From assembly GCA_023665555.1 (NCBI GenBank), contig JAMPDR010000008.1, forward strand, positions 1-58,084: a DNA stretch of 58,084 bases. Direction: 5' to 3'. Numbering within the stretch: position 1 is the stretch's first letter; every line of letters begins with the position of its first letter. Made by a program: the position numbers and the translations under genes. The notes under the pieces were generated by a model. The model was not told the origin of the DNA. It searched no databases and saw nothing but the letters and a program-made list of their open reading frames with translations. Of this stretch, positions 8,347 through 57,713 are shown one piece after another. The stretch is from Ruminococcus sp. (GTDB lineage: Bacteria > Bacillota > Clostridia > Oscillospirales > Acutalibacteraceae).

Positions 8347-9200
8347 TTATTTTTTCCTTTCAAAACTTTATTCATCGAACCGCTCATTCCGTCAAAAAGA
8401 ATATTTTCAATTATCGGGAAAAGCACTGTAAGTTTCAAATTATTATATGCTTCAATCGCTGATGCAACACTCAGATTTAGCGTTGATTCAATCTCTTTTT
8501 TGATTTCATCAGAAATATCCGCAGCTGTCTTAAGGTTATATCTATTGACAAAAACATTAAAGGATGAATGTTTTATATCACTTTCAATATCATCAGCGGC
8601 ATCAATAAGATATACCCATCTGCCAAGCATATACCCCAAACGATAAAGACTTGTGTTTTCTTCATCGTTATAGCAGAATATCCTTCCGAGTGCATCTGCA
8701 CTATTGTGTGCGGCTTTGTCTAAGATATCTGTTTCATTCTGTTCAACTTCAGATTGTTTTTGCATTGATTCACCTATGATCAAATCAAGCTTATCAAAGC
8801 ACTTTTTTGCTTTTCTTCGCTTAAGTGCGGCATATGGCAAAATCAGATACATCAAAAACTTTTTGAAAATTCCGCTGTCGGCAATATTATCTTTGATCTT
8901 ATAATAAAACATAATCACCGTCACTGCCGCCGCAAAACTGAAACTGTTTTCTGCGTTGGTGCAGTAATTGCATTTTTTCATCGGATTGAACGGACATCTT
9001 CCGCCTTTGAATTCAGGTGAAACACCTTGCACAGATAGTATTATCATAGCCAAAAAAGTTAAATCATAGCTTAACATGAGCCTGGATATAACTCCGTATT
9101 CTTTGCCGAGATATTTACATAGAGTACAGTACAGACCTCGGTATGCTTCATATTCCTTAACTTTCATTTCCGGCTTATTGACTCGAACATAGCCAAACAT
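8343..9200 (-). CDS. DUF5685 family protein with cysteine clusters and two Asp-rich motifs
   Basis: A 285-residue, mostly helical protein that matches DUF5685 as I remember the family; no function is established. Five cysteines sit in the N-terminal third (25, 28, 69, 77 and 80), arranged like a metal site (CxxC and CxxC). Two aspartate motifs lie in helices: D104-x3-D108 (DNIAD) and a cluster at 200-208 (DAADDIESD). Their spacing recalls the paired Asp motifs of squalene/phytoene synthase-type isoprenoid enzymes; this is only a visual resemblance. It is the first gene of an operon with the cysteine-tailed J-protein (4-nt overlap) and a membrane protein. Confidence 0.75.
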
Positions 9201-9295
9201 CGACTCACCTCAAAAGTTTAAAAATTGCGCCGATTGTTAACTTATTATTTATCATCATATTCTAAAAGTCTAACTTAAAAAATACCTTATTAATA

Positions 9296-23450: not shown

Positions 23451-23959
23451 ACATTACTTTCTCCTCTTATTCTCTCATCGCTAAGTCTTCTGACTTCATC
23501 TTCAGTGAGCATTTTTGAAACAAAATCAGTGTATAAATGACCGTCAAGATGGTCAAGTTCATGACAGAAGCATCTTGCACGCAGGCCTTCGCCCTTATAA
23601 AGGCACCACTGACCTTTTCTGTTTTGTGCTCTTACTGTTACTGATATAGGGCGCTTAACAAGTCCCCACTGATTTGGGACTGAAAGGCAACCCTCTTCGC
23701 CCTCTTCTGTTTCCTCTGACTTTTCAACAATTTCCGGATTTATGAGTTCCATCAAACCCTTGCCGTCATCTATATCAACAAGCACCACTCTTCTCAAAAC
23801 TCCAACTTGAACCGCAGCCAATCCTGCACCCTCTGCTTTTTTGAGCGTATCTTTCATATCATCAAGAAGAGTCCAAAGTTTAGCATCAAAGTTTTCAACT
23901 CTGCGGCTGATCTTTCTGAGTACCGGATCACCTACTGTAACAATTTTTCTTATTGCCAT
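23447..23959 (-). CDS. def: Peptide deformylase
   Basis: 170 residues from the chosen ATG. The enzyme removes the N-formyl group from nascent proteins. All three family motifs are present: GLAAVQVG, EEGCLSVP, and CHELDHLDG, the metal-binding HExxH type. An ATG three codons upstream (23968) is only 2 nt from the GGAAAGG ribosome site. The ATG at 23959, giving MAIRKIV as in most deformylases, is 11 nt away and preferred. A candidate pseudoknot (23971-24013) ends directly at this ribosome site, so translation of def and the coupled fmt may be controlled. Confidence 0.95.
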   Translation of the reverse strand: MAIRKIVTVGDPVLRKISRRVENFDAKLWTLLDDMKDTLKKAEGAGLAAVQVGVLRRVVLVDIDDGKGLMELINPEIVEKSEETEEGEEGCLSVPNQWGLVKRPISVTVRAQNRKGQWCLYKGEGLRARCFCHELDHLDGHLYTDFVSKMLTEDEVRRLSDERIRGESNV

Positions 23960-23970
23960 AAATCCCATTA

Positions 23971-24013
23971 CCTTTCCGACTGCAAATTATAATTTTCTGC
24001 AGCAGTCATGCAG
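23971..24013 (-). promoter_or_regulatory. Candidate H-type pseudoknot in the def leader (copy 1 of 3)
   Basis: On the minus strand a 5-bp hairpin (CTGCA with TGCAG) has the loop TGACTGC. After a 13-nt AT-only linker, GCAGTC pairs with the loop GACTGC. GGAAAGG follows with no gap, 11 nt before the deformylase start. The same architecture recurs at 52997-53044 and 57566-57628. It begins 4 nt after the priA stop codon. The pairing is seen directly; regulation is inferred. Confidence 0.6.
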
Positions 24014-51790: not shown

Positions 51791-52984
51791 TTAAGCGGCA
51801 GTTTTTTCTGTGGAACTCTGGTCAATCATAGATTTTCTTGTCAGTGAAGAAATCAGACGATACATAATATCCGTAACCTTTAATCTTCTCACCGCCGTTT
51901 CGCTTATCAGCTTATATTCGGCAATGCTTTTTCCATCAATTGTGAACTTCACTGTACCAAGAACCTGACCCTGTTCAACAGGTGCTTCCACATCGGCGGC
52001 AAGGTCAATTTCAGTTTGTATTTTACTTTTTTGACCGCTTTCAAGTGTCAACGATTTTATCTGTTCAAGTTTTGGCATGACCGCCGCGTCAATGCCTTTG
52101 ATCACTCTGACTTCGGTAATCAAACTCATGTCAAATTCGGGGGTTACAGTTTCGTAATTGGCAAAACCCCAATTAAGCATTGTCTTTGCCGCTTCGAATC
52201 GTTCAGAGCCGCCGCTGCTGCCCATTACAACAGCAATCAGATGCAAGCCATCTCTTTGTGCAGATGCCGATATGCAATGTCCGGCTTTTGTTGTTGTTCC
52301 TGTTTTGAGTCCTGTTGTGCCCTTATAGAATCTTACCAACTTATTTGTATTAACAAGCTGAGTCGCGCCGTCACGAAGTGAATCCATCCAAACAGTTGTA
52401 TAGTTTTGTATACGTTCATGGCTAAGCAGCTGCTTTGACATCAGCGCAATATCATATGCACTTGTCAAATGCTCGGTGGTATCATCATCAAGTCCTGTAC
52501 AATTTACAAAATTCGTATCATTCATTCCGAGTTCTTTGGCACGGTCATTCATCATTTTCACTATTCCGTCTTCACTTCCTGCGATGTGCTCACCCAAAGC
52601 AGTGCATGCATCGTTTGCACTTGATATCACCGCCGCTTTAAGCAATTCATCAACTGTCATTTGCTCACCCTCCTTGAGCCATATCTGCGAGCCACCCTTT
52701 CCTGCCGCAACTGCACTTGCCGTGATTTTATCGGTCAATGACAACTTGCCTGAATCAATTGCTTCCATCACAAGCAGCAGCGGCATAATCTTTGTTACGG
52801 ATGCAGGATAAAGTTTTTTATGCTCATTTTTACTAAACAGCACCTCACCTGTTGATGCATCCATTAATACCGCCGCTTTTGCATCAATATCAAGTGCTGT
52901 TTCACCTTTTTTTGCGGATGCAGAGAAAACCGGTGAAGATACAGTTAACACAATGCAGGCAACAAAGCATAAGAATTTTTTCAT
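51791..52984 (-). CDS. Serine-type D-Ala-D-Ala carboxypeptidase (PBP5/DacF-like), copy 2
   Basis: 397 residues with a signal peptide (MKKFLCFVACIVLTVSSPVFSASA) and the S11 motifs SVTK, SANDA and KTGTT. A C-terminal beta domain (about 285-370) and a short C-terminal segment follow. It trims peptidoglycan; a role in spore cortex (as DacF) or vegetative wall cannot be decided from sequence. Its leader has a candidate pseudoknot that ends at the GGAAAGG ribosome site (52997-53044). The gene is divergent from mtaB. Confidence 0.92.
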   Translation of the reverse strand: MKKFLCFVACIVLTVSSPVFSASAKKGETALDIDAKAAVLMDASTGEVLFSKNEHKKLYPASVTKIMPLLLVMEAIDSGKLSLTDKITASAVAAGKGGSQIWLKEGEQMTVDELLKAAVISSANDACTALGEHIAGSEDGIVKMMNDRAKELGMNDTNFVNCTGLDDDTTEHLTSAYDIALMSKQLLSHERIQNYTTVWMDSLRDGATQLVNTNKLVRFYKGTTGLKTGTTTKAGHCISASAQRDGLHLIAVVMGSSGGSERFEAAKTMLNWGFANYETVTPEFDMSLITEVRVIKGIDAAVMPKLEQIKSLTLESGQKSKIQTEIDLAADVEAPVEQGQVLGTVKFTIDGKSIAEYKLISETAVRRLKVTDIMYRLISSLTRKSMIDQSSTEKTAA

Positions 52985-52996
52985 TTAATATTGTTT

Positions 52997-53044
52997 CCTT
53001 TCCGACTGCCGATTCACGAAATTCCCTGCCGCAGTCGAACAAGG
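52997..53044 (-). promoter_or_regulatory. Candidate H-type pseudoknot in a carboxypeptidase leader (copy 2 of 3)
   Basis: On the minus strand a 5-bp hairpin (CCTTG with CAGGG) has the loop TTC-GACTGC-GG. After a 14-nt linker, GCAGTC pairs with the loop GACTGC, then GGAAAGG, 12 nt before the start codon. A flanking weak outer stem (TTCA with TGAA) is possible. The loop/3' pair is the same sequence as in the def copy while the hairpin arms differ. Confidence 0.6.
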
Positions 53045-53130
53045 CGCGATGAAATTTTGAGAAAGATGCTTCAAGCATAATATCCCTCACAAAATGTTAT
53101 GATTAAAAGATTAAAATTAAAACAAAGATA

Positions 53131-56262: not shown

Positions 56263-57555
56263 TTAATTTTCGGGTTGATACCATTTACCAAAGTTTATAA
56301 ATGACTGATAAATTCTATCCCAGAAATTCAAGAAAGACTGGAGCAAACTTGAAAGCATTGCGCGCCAACCGCCGCTTACAGTATCTTTAATATCATTAAT
56401 CTTATCCTGCGTACTTTCCGAGAGCATGTCCTGAATCATTGTGACACCTGCTGCAAGGTCAGTACCATTAAGGAATACATTGATGATCGTTGTAAGTCTT
56501 GTTTTATCAGTTTCGCTGAGTTTGTCACTGCTGTTAACAGCTTCAATCATCTTTGAAATCGGCAATGCATTTTGTGCATCCTTACCGATAAGGTTAAGAT
56601 AAATCATAACATAAAGGAACAATTCTGTTCTGTCTGCTGCTGAAGCGAATCTGTAAACAGGCATTGTCATGAAGTGCAAGTGCTCTGTATCTGTTTTATC
56701 GTTATGATTTACAATGAGATTGAACAGACCGTGCAATGTCTGGAGTTCAGTTTCTGTGATTGATGGCACAAAATAACCATTGATAAGCTGACCATTGGTA
56801 AGATATCCCTGGAAGAGAGCCTTGACGGCAGGATAATAAACTGTTTTGTATCCTGCGGCAAACTTAGAAAGAAGATCAAGGAAATAGTTAACCGGACCCT
56901 GATCGAGCGCATTTTTGATGATTGCCTTAACAAGCATCTGACCCATAAGCTGACCGTTTGAATAATCACTTTCAAGATAAATACTCTCAAAGCTTACACC
57001 AAAAGCCTTCATAAGAGTCTTGAATTCAACATTCTGATAGCACCAGTTATGCTGAATTACGTCACCGAGTCCGCTCTTTTCGACAACAAGTCTGTAGAAA
57101 GCTTCTTCAGGCTCATATACATAGTTGAAGTTGATGTAAACATCGGTGTAATCAGGATTGATAAGATGTCCGATGAAGTTAGTCAGTTTTGATACATTTT
57201 CAGAAGTGAAAAGCTTGTTGTCATCTGCATAGAGTTCTGTAAGAACTGTTTTAAAATATGAGTTCAAACTTGCCTTAAGGAGAGTAAGCTCATTCTTTTC
57301 GAAATCAATGCCGCTTTGAACAACAACACCATCCTTAACTTCTGTTTGTTTCCAGAATATCGGCATTGAGGTGTTGTAGATGTAATCAAGAGTAACACCG
57401 AGAATATTCACGCTTTTGAGATCGCCGTTTGCAAGCAGGTTTTCAACATCAATACCCTGTTTCGGTGCAATCTCGTCATCAGCAGCTGATGAAACAATTC
57501 CCAATGATGAAACAATCATGAGTACAGACAATAATAAAGCAATAAACTTTTTCAT
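56263..57555 (-). CDS. Secreted protein of unknown function (430 aa)
   Basis: I do not recognise this protein. From the ATG at 57555 it has a clear signal peptide (MKKFIALLLSVLMIVSSLG, cleavage after about residue 26, ...SSAAD). The mature part is mostly helical by composition, with a high content of Leu, Asn, Thr and Tyr, and has no cysteine-rich or repeat domain. The last 35 residues are aromatic and amphipathic (LQSFLNFWDRIYQSFINFGKW), without LPXTG or dockerin. The leader is about 157 nt, strongly structured and ends in the third candidate pseudoknot. A consensus promoter drives it alone, so it is likely abundant. Confidence 0.8.
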   Translation of the reverse strand: MKKFIALLLSVLMIVSSLGIVSSAADDEIAPKQGIDVENLLANGDLKSVNILGVTLDYIYNTSMPIFWKQTEVKDGVVVQSGIDFEKNELTLLKASLNSYFKTVLTELYADDNKLFTSENVSKLTNFIGHLINPDYTDVYINFNYVYEPEEAFYRLVVEKSGLGDVIQHNWCYQNVEFKTLMKAFGVSFESIYLESDYSNGQLMGQMLVKAIIKNALDQGPVNYFLDLLSKFAAGYKTVYYPAVKALFQGYLTNGQLINGYFVPSITETELQTLHGLFNLIVNHNDKTDTEHLHFMTMPVYRFASAADRTELFLYVMIYLNLIGKDAQNALPISKMIEAVNSSDKLSETDKTRLTTIINVFLNGTDLAAGVTMIQDMLSESTQDKINDIKDTVSGGWRAMLSSLLQSFLNFWDRIYQSFINFGKWYQPEN

Positions 57556-57565
57556 ATGACCATAG

Positions 57566-57628
57566 CCTTTCCGACCACAAACAATAATTATGATCACACG
57601 CTCTCTGCTGTGGTCTGACAGAGTGTGA
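57566..57628 (-). promoter_or_regulatory. Candidate H-type pseudoknot in a secreted-protein leader (copy 3 of 3)
   Basis: On the minus strand a 10-bp hairpin (TCACAC-TCTG with CAGA, 4-nt bulge, GTGTGA) has the loop TCA-GACCAC-AG. After a 15-nt AT-rich linker, GTGGTC pairs with the loop GACCAC; GGAAAGG follows directly, 10 nt before the ATG. Relative to the other copies both strands of the loop pairing changed together (GACTGC/GCAGTC to GACCAC/GTGGTC), which is covariation. Confidence 0.65.
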
Positions 57629-57713
57629 TTAAAATTCATCCGTTTATCACAGATGCACAATACAATCAGTGGATAAATACGCACTGACCCCTTTGCGAAA
57701 GTTCTACATATAG

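Follow-up and report, generated by a model that had tools for sequence, protein, structure and literature searches.

Pseudoknotted leaders of a Ruminococcus genome as probable copies of a dispersed element with its own ribosome site

Three genes on the minus strand of a 58,084-nucleotide (nt) stretch of Ruminococcus sp. DNA (positions 1 to 58,084 of contig JAMPDR010000008.1, assembly GCA_023665555.1, family Acutalibacteraceae, order Oscillospirales; hereafter the window) are preceded by leaders in which a candidate pseudoknot runs directly into the Shine-Dalgarno (SD) sequence GGAAAGG. Two of the genes we take to be def and dacA, the third encodes a secreted protein, and the question is why the same folded ribosome site should recur in front of them. 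The original prediction saw in these leaders a possible new cis-regulator acting on translation, with the geometry of a small riboswitch. Our analysis indicates that they are probably copies of a dispersed structured element of the Oscillospirales that entered the spacers between SD and AUG of different genes, bringing its own pseudoknotted SD, here called SD2.

Architecture and copies of the leaders

The predicted common architecture comprised a hairpin with six bases in its loop, a linker of 13-15 nt, the six complementary bases and, without any gap, GGAAAGG at 10-12 nt from the start codon, and inspection of the sequence found it in all three leaders. The dacA leader reads CCTTG-TTC-GACTGC-GG-CAGGG, 14-nt linker, GCAGTC, GGAAAGG. 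Its P2 hairpin CCTTG...CAGGG with the loop occupies 53024-53044, and both P2 sides vary in other copies. The loop carries the pseudoknot 5' strand GACTGC (53031-53036), which pairs with the 3' strand GCAGTC (53004-53009), these pairs also covarying among copies. SD2 follows at 52997-53003, and the ATG of dacA begins at 52984. An outer stem, P1 (53014-53049), encloses P2 with a 3' bulge by pairing TCGCG (53045-53049) with CGTGA (53014-53018), and the outer TCGC/GTGA was parsed for locus L043. The def leader (23971-24013), identified by sequence and by a covariance model match, consists of the hairpin CTGCA-T-GACTGC-TGCAG (23997-24013), a 13-nt linker, GCAGTC (23978-23983) and SD2 (23971-23977), with the ATG beginning at 23959. 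The secreted-protein leader (57566-57629), likewise a model match, has the layout CTCTG-TCA-GACCAC-AG-CAGAG, linker, GTGGTC, GGAAAGG, in which P2 is CTCTG/CAGAG, GACCAC (57610-57615) pairs with GTGGTC (57573-57578), SD2 lies at 57566-57572 and the ATG begins at 57555, and it adds an outer stem ATCACAC/GTGTGAT. The distances from GGAAAGG to ATG, 11 nt for def, 12 nt for dacA and 10 nt for the secreted protein, agree with those predicted. The predicted linker length holds for def and dacA, whereas the secreted-protein leader has 24 nt between inner stem and pseudoknot strand, of which 14 nt remain once the strand of the outer stem is subtracted.

The only three exact matches of GTCGGAAAGG in the window are found at these leaders. 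This 10-mer alone is unremarkable, since four sites with at most one mismatch compare to a shuffled mean of 1.92 and 10 of 100 shuffles reach four. A descriptor of the full architecture (GGAAAGG, the preceding six bases pairing with an upstream hairpin loop, ATG 7-20 nt later) was satisfied by four of six GGAAAGG sites examined in the window, whereas 300 Markov dinucleotide resamplings gave 0.06 such sites on average and never more than one. Three of the four are the predicted leaders. The remaining one lies within the coding region of dacA, its SD being at about 52702, and has probably arisen by chance.

In what follows, loci are labelled L and genomes G, the window's genome, a 2.6 Mb assembly, being G000. 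There GTCGGAAAGG occurs 20 times, compared to nine times for the reversed pattern, and at 15 of the 20 sites a hairpin loop pairs with the bases preceding the SD. Thirteen sites were aligned (alignment A1), leaving out L002, L005, L007, L008 and L010, which had no clear hairpin, as well as L012 and L015, which had one. The pseudoknot cells of A1 were paired to 94.2%, and its structure had more paired cells than any slid control. Of five measures compared with shuffled alignments, four were higher in A1, and one, further pair types, did not rise above the shuffles (18 versus 18.1). A covariance model pairing the stem only, without the pseudoknot (R1), gave 36 matches in G000 at E<=1e-5, the non-seed ones reaching down to 1.7e-18, and many matches had another loop type, GGCTAC/GTAGCC, that was absent from the seed. 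A wider model, R2, was built from 57 matches in a chosen list of 56 loci and omitted weaker matches, including L046, L048, L049, L083-L087, L089 and L091-L099. It found 39 copies in G000 at E<=1e-5, many of which, including those of the window, belonged to its training set. The window copies scored 66.8 (secreted protein), 51.3 (def) and 44.5 bits (dacA). The covariance-model search of Oscillospirales genomes that had been proposed along with the original prediction was thereby carried out, and it returned many copies just upstream of start codons, together with further covariation. Of the outcomes named in advance as refuting, neither a copy number at chance level, nor a lack of covariation, nor an Rfam match came about. 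The leaders had not been assigned to any known riboswitch class, and Rfam bears this out: a scan of the window gave no match at the gathering cut-off, and permissive scans of the dacA leader, of nine loci with short or full copies and of five full-length loci gave none at gathering score on the element.

The pairing of the loop covaries well beyond the single change seen within the window. It could be parsed in 53 of 57 copies aligned to the stem-only model, the other four copies being without it, and the parsed pairs include GGCTAC/GTAGCC (20), GACTGC/GCAGTC (11) and GACTAC/GTAGTC (7) as well as single cases such as GACCAC/GTGGTC, GGCCAC/GTGGCC, GGTCGC/GCGGCC and GCTCAC/GTGAGC. The model behind this alignment pairs P2 and leaves the pseudoknot unpaired. 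There were 11 G.U versus three A.C cells in the pseudoknot and 19 versus three in P2, cells of related sequences that are not independent of each other; an excess of G.U over A.C would be expected for RNA of the sense strand. Leaders common to two species of another genus, G300 and G363, showed compensatory pseudoknot changes at two genes, presumably yfcE-like and rpe, while a third leader was unchanged. The pairs differed as GGCTAC/GTAGCC versus GGCTGC/GCAGTC at the former and GGCTAC/GTAGTC versus GACTGC/GCAGTC at the latter, each with an additional G.U step.

Beyond the window's genome, the element forms multi-copy sets in other Oscillospirales, some of them uncultured gut bacteria. At E<=1e-5, R2 found 13 copies in G026, 10 in G180, nine in G024, eight in G333, seven in G300 and six in G428; G026 and G024 were, like G000, part of its training, and G180, G333, G300 and G428 were not. 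A match at this threshold was present in five of 33 congeners and in 16 of 394 genomes, the window's own included, of an even sample of the order in which scoring was limited to 12 candidates for each genome. When 24 chosen genomes were searched more fully, there were up to 10 and seven copies in the same-family genera g33 and g41, respectively, and one copy each in two genomes of family f19. Across the phylum, again with 12 candidates scored per genome, two of 397 other genomes had single matches at about E 1e-5 of at most 27.5 bits. An exact pattern scan of a named genome collection returned 87 stretches, of which the 80 listed come mostly from gut Oscillospiraceae and Clostridia metagenome-assembled genomes, often several per assembly (eight each in HAN078 and U_127168); five single matches from clearly distant taxa among these 80 look like chance. 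Viral contigs contained one stretch, a full-length copy (L389) on the 12.3 kb contig IMGVR_UViG_3300010163_000450 that is classed as viral, and a plasmid collection searched with one full-length copy gave no match.

The full-length element and its place before genes

A longer repeat, or its 3' half, is common to ten places of G000 and recurs in other genera. A profile of the 5' part gave 86 matches in overlapping fetched loci, corresponding to 45 unique full-length or near-full-length copies of about 165 nt, after L274 and L087, which have no SD2, and partial matches to the first two hairpins had been dropped. From 5' to 3' the order is an SD-like motif, a short gap, hairpin H1 (TAGYGTGAAAAATCACRCTA), a spacer, hairpin H2 (GYCCTCAAAATTTG...CAAATTTTGAGATGGRC) and then the outer stem P0, which encloses the P1/P2 hairpin, the linker and the pseudoknot, with GGAAAGG, the P0 3' strand, a short gap and the start codon after them. 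The pseudoknot 3' strand runs straight into GGAAAGG, and the P0 3' strand fills the space up to the start codon. An SD-like 4-mer stands at most 18 nt before H1 in 36 of 42 full-length copies (shuffled mean 9.7, maximum 17), and the gaps to the SD-like motif and to the start codon are both most often 3 nt long. An open reading frame (ORF) follows 41 of the 45 full-length copies; of the other four, one precedes a tandem copy and one has a 57-codon frame.

The structure of the full-length element was evaluated on 42 of the 45 copies (alignment A5, without L121 and L124, in which H2 is altered, and one tandem copy of L013). Two-sided changes were found at 24 of 46 pairs with 91.9% of cells pairing, and 128 cells had changed on both sides, compared to 43.1 in shuffles and 17-25 in slid versions. 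The ratio of G.U to A.C cells was 18:6 in P0, 5:1 in the pseudoknot, 6:5 in P2, 16:16 in H1 and 18:28 in H2, so that the sense-strand signal of A5 is confined to P0 and the pseudoknot. The outer pairs of H1 beside the SD-like motif (columns 22-23 with 45-46) vary strongly yet pair, one of them being AU in 16 copies, UA in 14, CG in one and unpaired in two.

The genes behind the copies are diverse. The descriptor had 143 unique matches in the fetched loci, 128 of them with a frame of at least 60 amino acids or reaching the locus edge. These 128 downstream ORFs include some chance matches, for example inside dacA, and, because the loci were fetched by motif, they reflect the variety of genes rather than a target preference. 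They fall into 114 protein clusters, among which, by reading of the sequences, are presumably glyS, dtd, purB, glmM, ispD, def, dacA, tpiA, rpe, guaA, clpX and acpP. The start codon is ATG in 126 of the 128 cases, with 10-16 nt between SD and start in 118. A same-strand frame of at least 80 codons ends not more than 100 nt upstream of 74 copies, the remaining copies being without one, and several copies lie within 11 nt of the upstream frame's stop codon.

Orthologous loci of congeners allow a comparison with the state without the element. At three loci, which we take to be syntenic housekeeping genes (for example priA-def and spoIIAA-spoIIAB), we examined 29 of 31 congeners with a match for spoIIAB, 29 of 29 for def and 29 of 32 for dacA, and the element was absent from all readable ones (29/29, 29/29 and 28/28, L310 being cut by a contig end). 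At spoIIAB, an SD-like motif precedes the start codon by a few bases in every one of the 29 congener loci. In G000 the upstream frame has the same AAAGGAGG at its end, but about 200 nt now lie between it and the same start codon. The dacA locus of G000 retains TCATAACATTTT and, at 53084-53088, the motif GAGGG, now 99 nt upstream of the gene; by-eye alignment with TCATAACATTTT...GAGGTG...ATG of congener L300 makes it the apparent ancestral ribosome site, SD1. The def locus is without the element even in G026 (L241), which has 13 copies elsewhere. Since few congener loci have copies, these sequence comparisons are more simply read as a gain in the lineage of the window than as loss elsewhere.

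The three window leaders look like worn copies of this repeat, in which, as in other older copies, mainly pseudoknot and SD are kept. The palindrome ATGCTTGAAGCAT at 53066-53078 stands at the H1 position of the dacA copy and may be a remnant of it; the assignment is uncertain, because the same 13-mer also precedes dacA in the element-free congener L301. By analogy with full-length copies, AAAGGGG (57688-57694) and CAGTG...CACTG (57667-57686) upstream of the secreted-protein copy might be remnants of SD1 and H1.

These observations would fit the following course of events. Insertion would have taken place in the spacer from a gene's own SD to the AUG, pulling these two apart, and the element would have supplied SD2 as a substitute at a suitable distance from the AUG. 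The 5' part would then decay while pseudoknot and SD2 persist, presumably since translation of the gene has come to rely on them. Pseudoknot formation probably leaves SD2 accessible. The 5' strand CCUUGUCC, which forms P2 and loop 1, could alternatively pair with GGAAAGG in a long hairpin that would hide SD2. When four full-length copies were folded without pseudoknots, the minimum-energy fold of all four contained H1, H2, P0 and this long hairpin with CCUUGUCC paired to GGAAAGG. CCUUG would thus belong to the SD-hiding hairpin in this fold and, once the pseudoknot forms, to P2 together with CAAGG, in which case the SD stays free. Of six anti-SD pairs, 5.84 can be formed on average in 44 full-length copies and 4.58 in 24 older G000 copies, while P2 is of similar length in both (6.41 and 6.46 base pairs); the parse used for this comparison required a pseudoknot, and one of 45 full-length and two of 26 chosen older copies remained unparsed. 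The sequences thus suggest that the genes kept pseudoknot and SD and may have partly lost the hiding hairpin.

Several points weigh against an inserted element. A mobilising enzyme, a clear target duplication or an autonomous relative was not found: by eye there was no clear duplication at the three compared sites (def, dacA, spoIIAB), the DNA search of G000 revealed no autonomous copy, and the Y1 transposase family PF01797 was absent from G000, G026, G024, G333, G363 and G428. The other seven full-length places of G000 are only 74-85% identical to the query copy, and a tandem pair is the one sign of very recent copying in this genome. The SD-like 4-mer is missing in six of the 42 full-length copies, and the def leader of the window has no recognisable ancestral SD. 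H1 and H2 together have no sense-strand bias (G.U 34, A.C 44), nor does P2 on A5, and the covarying outer H1 pairs sit at the variable edge. Finally, SD2 is hidden in the nested fold, and an intact copy could, on that model, silence its gene rather than serve it. We class the element as an interspersed repeat and infer its mobility.

Further observations concern individual copies. Locus L013 (1099-1439) carries two tandem full-length copies 159 bp apart, upstream of a gene that we take to be TraG/VirD4-like, and the second starts directly after SD2 and spacer of the first. In L274 (G000 contig C36, near 9144-9220) a degenerate full-length copy has no recognisable pseudoknot pairing or SD2, and another SD-like motif, GAAGGG, stands just before the following ATG, as if a new ribosome site had taken over. 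A second repeat of about 80 nt is found directly downstream of a pseudoknot-element copy in both L042 (around 1586, plus strand) and L048 (around 1572, minus strand). Placed between an SD-like AAGGAGG and an ATG, it shares AAGGAGGCAGCGGTACGGACACTCAG(A/G)TAAAATATTTCAT and ends in CATGG(C/T)GATT(T)ATTATG; it may represent another family of the same behaviour.

Competing explanations

Among the alternatives, a true regulatory switch survives best, although we regard it as unlikely. The pseudoknot with SD2 free and the long hairpin with SD2 hidden would then be alternative states, with a trans-acting factor, temperature or ribosomes coming from the upstream gene selecting between them, and the copies would constitute a large regulon. 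The ability of CCTTG to pair with either CAAGG or the AAAGG of the SD, the nearly complete anti-SD pairing of full-length copies and the frequent upstream frames, as in coupled translation, are in its favour. Yet such a regulon would consist of a nearly random gene set that congeners do not have in common with G000 at the three compared genes, and its off state would be poorly kept, given the reduced anti-SD pairing next to unchanged P2 in older copies.

An improbable reading is that of a palindromic repeat acting at the DNA level only, in which a long inverted repeat would produce the pseudoknot as a side effect and the SD-like bases would be incidental. It could account for the long hairpins of the four folded copies and for the missing strand bias of H1 and H2, but not for the G.U excess in pseudoknot and P2 of the 57 copies, the tight spacing to the start codon, or the older copies that retain P2, pseudoknot and SD and lose part of the long hairpin; moreover, the sole degenerate full-length copy of G000 has its other SD-like motif nearer to the ATG.

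A new metabolite-binding riboswitch acting on translation is very doubtful. An H-type pseudoknot joined to the SD recalls small translational riboswitches, for instance those for preQ1, which control access to the SD. The preQ1 riboswitches are compact RNA pseudoknots that regulate downstream genes (PMC11625349); the element differs in that it has no Rfam match, no conserved ligand pocket was seen in it, and its genes have no common pathway. A single ligand is unlikely, because the downstream genes are nearly random, and this explanation was rejected on gene content. In addition, no strongly conserved unpaired pocket was seen by eye in loops or linker, the carrier genes differ between species, and many copies are part of the longer dispersed repeat. 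What stands of the proposed cis-regulator is the recurrent H-type pseudoknot adjoining an SD before start codons, for which a translational role is likely; a small-ligand riboswitch is not supported.

Just as hard to credit is a self-splicing intron, present as a remnant or in miniature, that would give back the old ribosome site on being removed. Its two flanking gaps could be measured in 39 copies and add up to 4-9 nt in 30 of them, a length resembling that of an SD-AUG spacer, but five loci with full-length copies had no Rfam intron match at E<=1, a catalytic domain was not seen, and an SD is already part of the element.

Three further candidates were discarded. An origin from repetitive extragenic palindromes or IS200-IS605 elements was rejected on the absence of PF01797 from six of the eight element-bearing genomes searched, G000 among them; the family occurs once each in G180 and G300 (in the latter with stops) and also in the element-free G004, G027 and G339. 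Integron attC-like sites were set aside, the compared genes being presumably syntenic housekeeping genes. A conserved upstream ORF starting in H1 was dismissed as well: frame and length differ by eye, and an open frame continuous with that of the gene exists in only three of 45 full-length leaders.

Related systems and significance

The proposed inserted element with its own SD has parallels in mechanism and in dispersal. In repZ of the IncI-alpha plasmid ColIb-P9, a hairpin loop pairs beside the SD and translation is coupled to an upstream reading frame. Our element resembles it by sequence, since its hairpin loop can pair with bases adjoining the SD. A frame ending shortly upstream, which might allow coupling, is present at 74 of the 128 copies and missing at the others. 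However, repZ is one plasmid gene under antisense RNA control, whereas the element is a dispersed family before unrelated genes. Together with tisB, the repZ pseudoknot is the closest in mechanism (PMC8383071). The tisB mRNA has a standby pseudoknot in its 5' untranslated region that is required for binding of 30S and S1 and for initiation, but it acts about 100 nt from a sequestered ribosome-binding site, while the pseudoknot of the element abuts the SD (PMC7708055).

With regard to dispersal, the element is similar to small interspersed repeats resembling miniature inverted-repeat transposable elements, in that homologous copies occur at unrelated loci and are absent from the relatives' orthologous loci at the three genes compared. 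The BOX, RUP and SPRITE repeats of pneumococcus are likewise small, interspersed, multi-copy and nearly confined to few species, have extensive secondary structure and are thought to be parasitic; placement between SD and AUG or an own SD is not reported in the abstract (PMC3049150). TAACTGA repeats of marine Beggiatoaceae stand in many copies directly before start codons, without a functional pattern of genes and with a proposed translational role, but they are short direct heptamer repeats with little SD character (PMC4679880). The ribosome termination structure, an mRNA structure just after the stop codon with a role in re-initiation within operons, is comparable because many copies of the element also follow a stop codon; it differs in that it appears to be a general stable structure rather than a single family of homologous, conserved sequences equipped with an SD (PMC7518266). 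In the open-access literature we found no described element that is placed between SD and AUG and comes with an SD of its own.

More tentatively, and with less confidence than in the insertion itself, one may think of a mobile ribosome-binding site, that is, of a class of small bacterial elements with the SD-AUG interval as their specific insertion site, which would leave the host gene unharmed through their own SD beside a self-folding pseudoknot, as a translational counterpart to introns, with the SD-hiding hairpin as a built-in off state. If true, this off state could make each insertion a new translational switch. The element sits exactly where an insertion should stop translation, yet it appears to repair the damage with a structured ribosome site of its own. 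Dozens of genes in G000, likely including glyS, purB, spoIIAB, def and ispD, stand behind a copy. They amount to a large series of natural replicates, in some of which the ancestral ribosome site can still be seen upstream, and with them one could ask what effect a pseudoknot beside an SD has and how translation signals are replaced in evolution.
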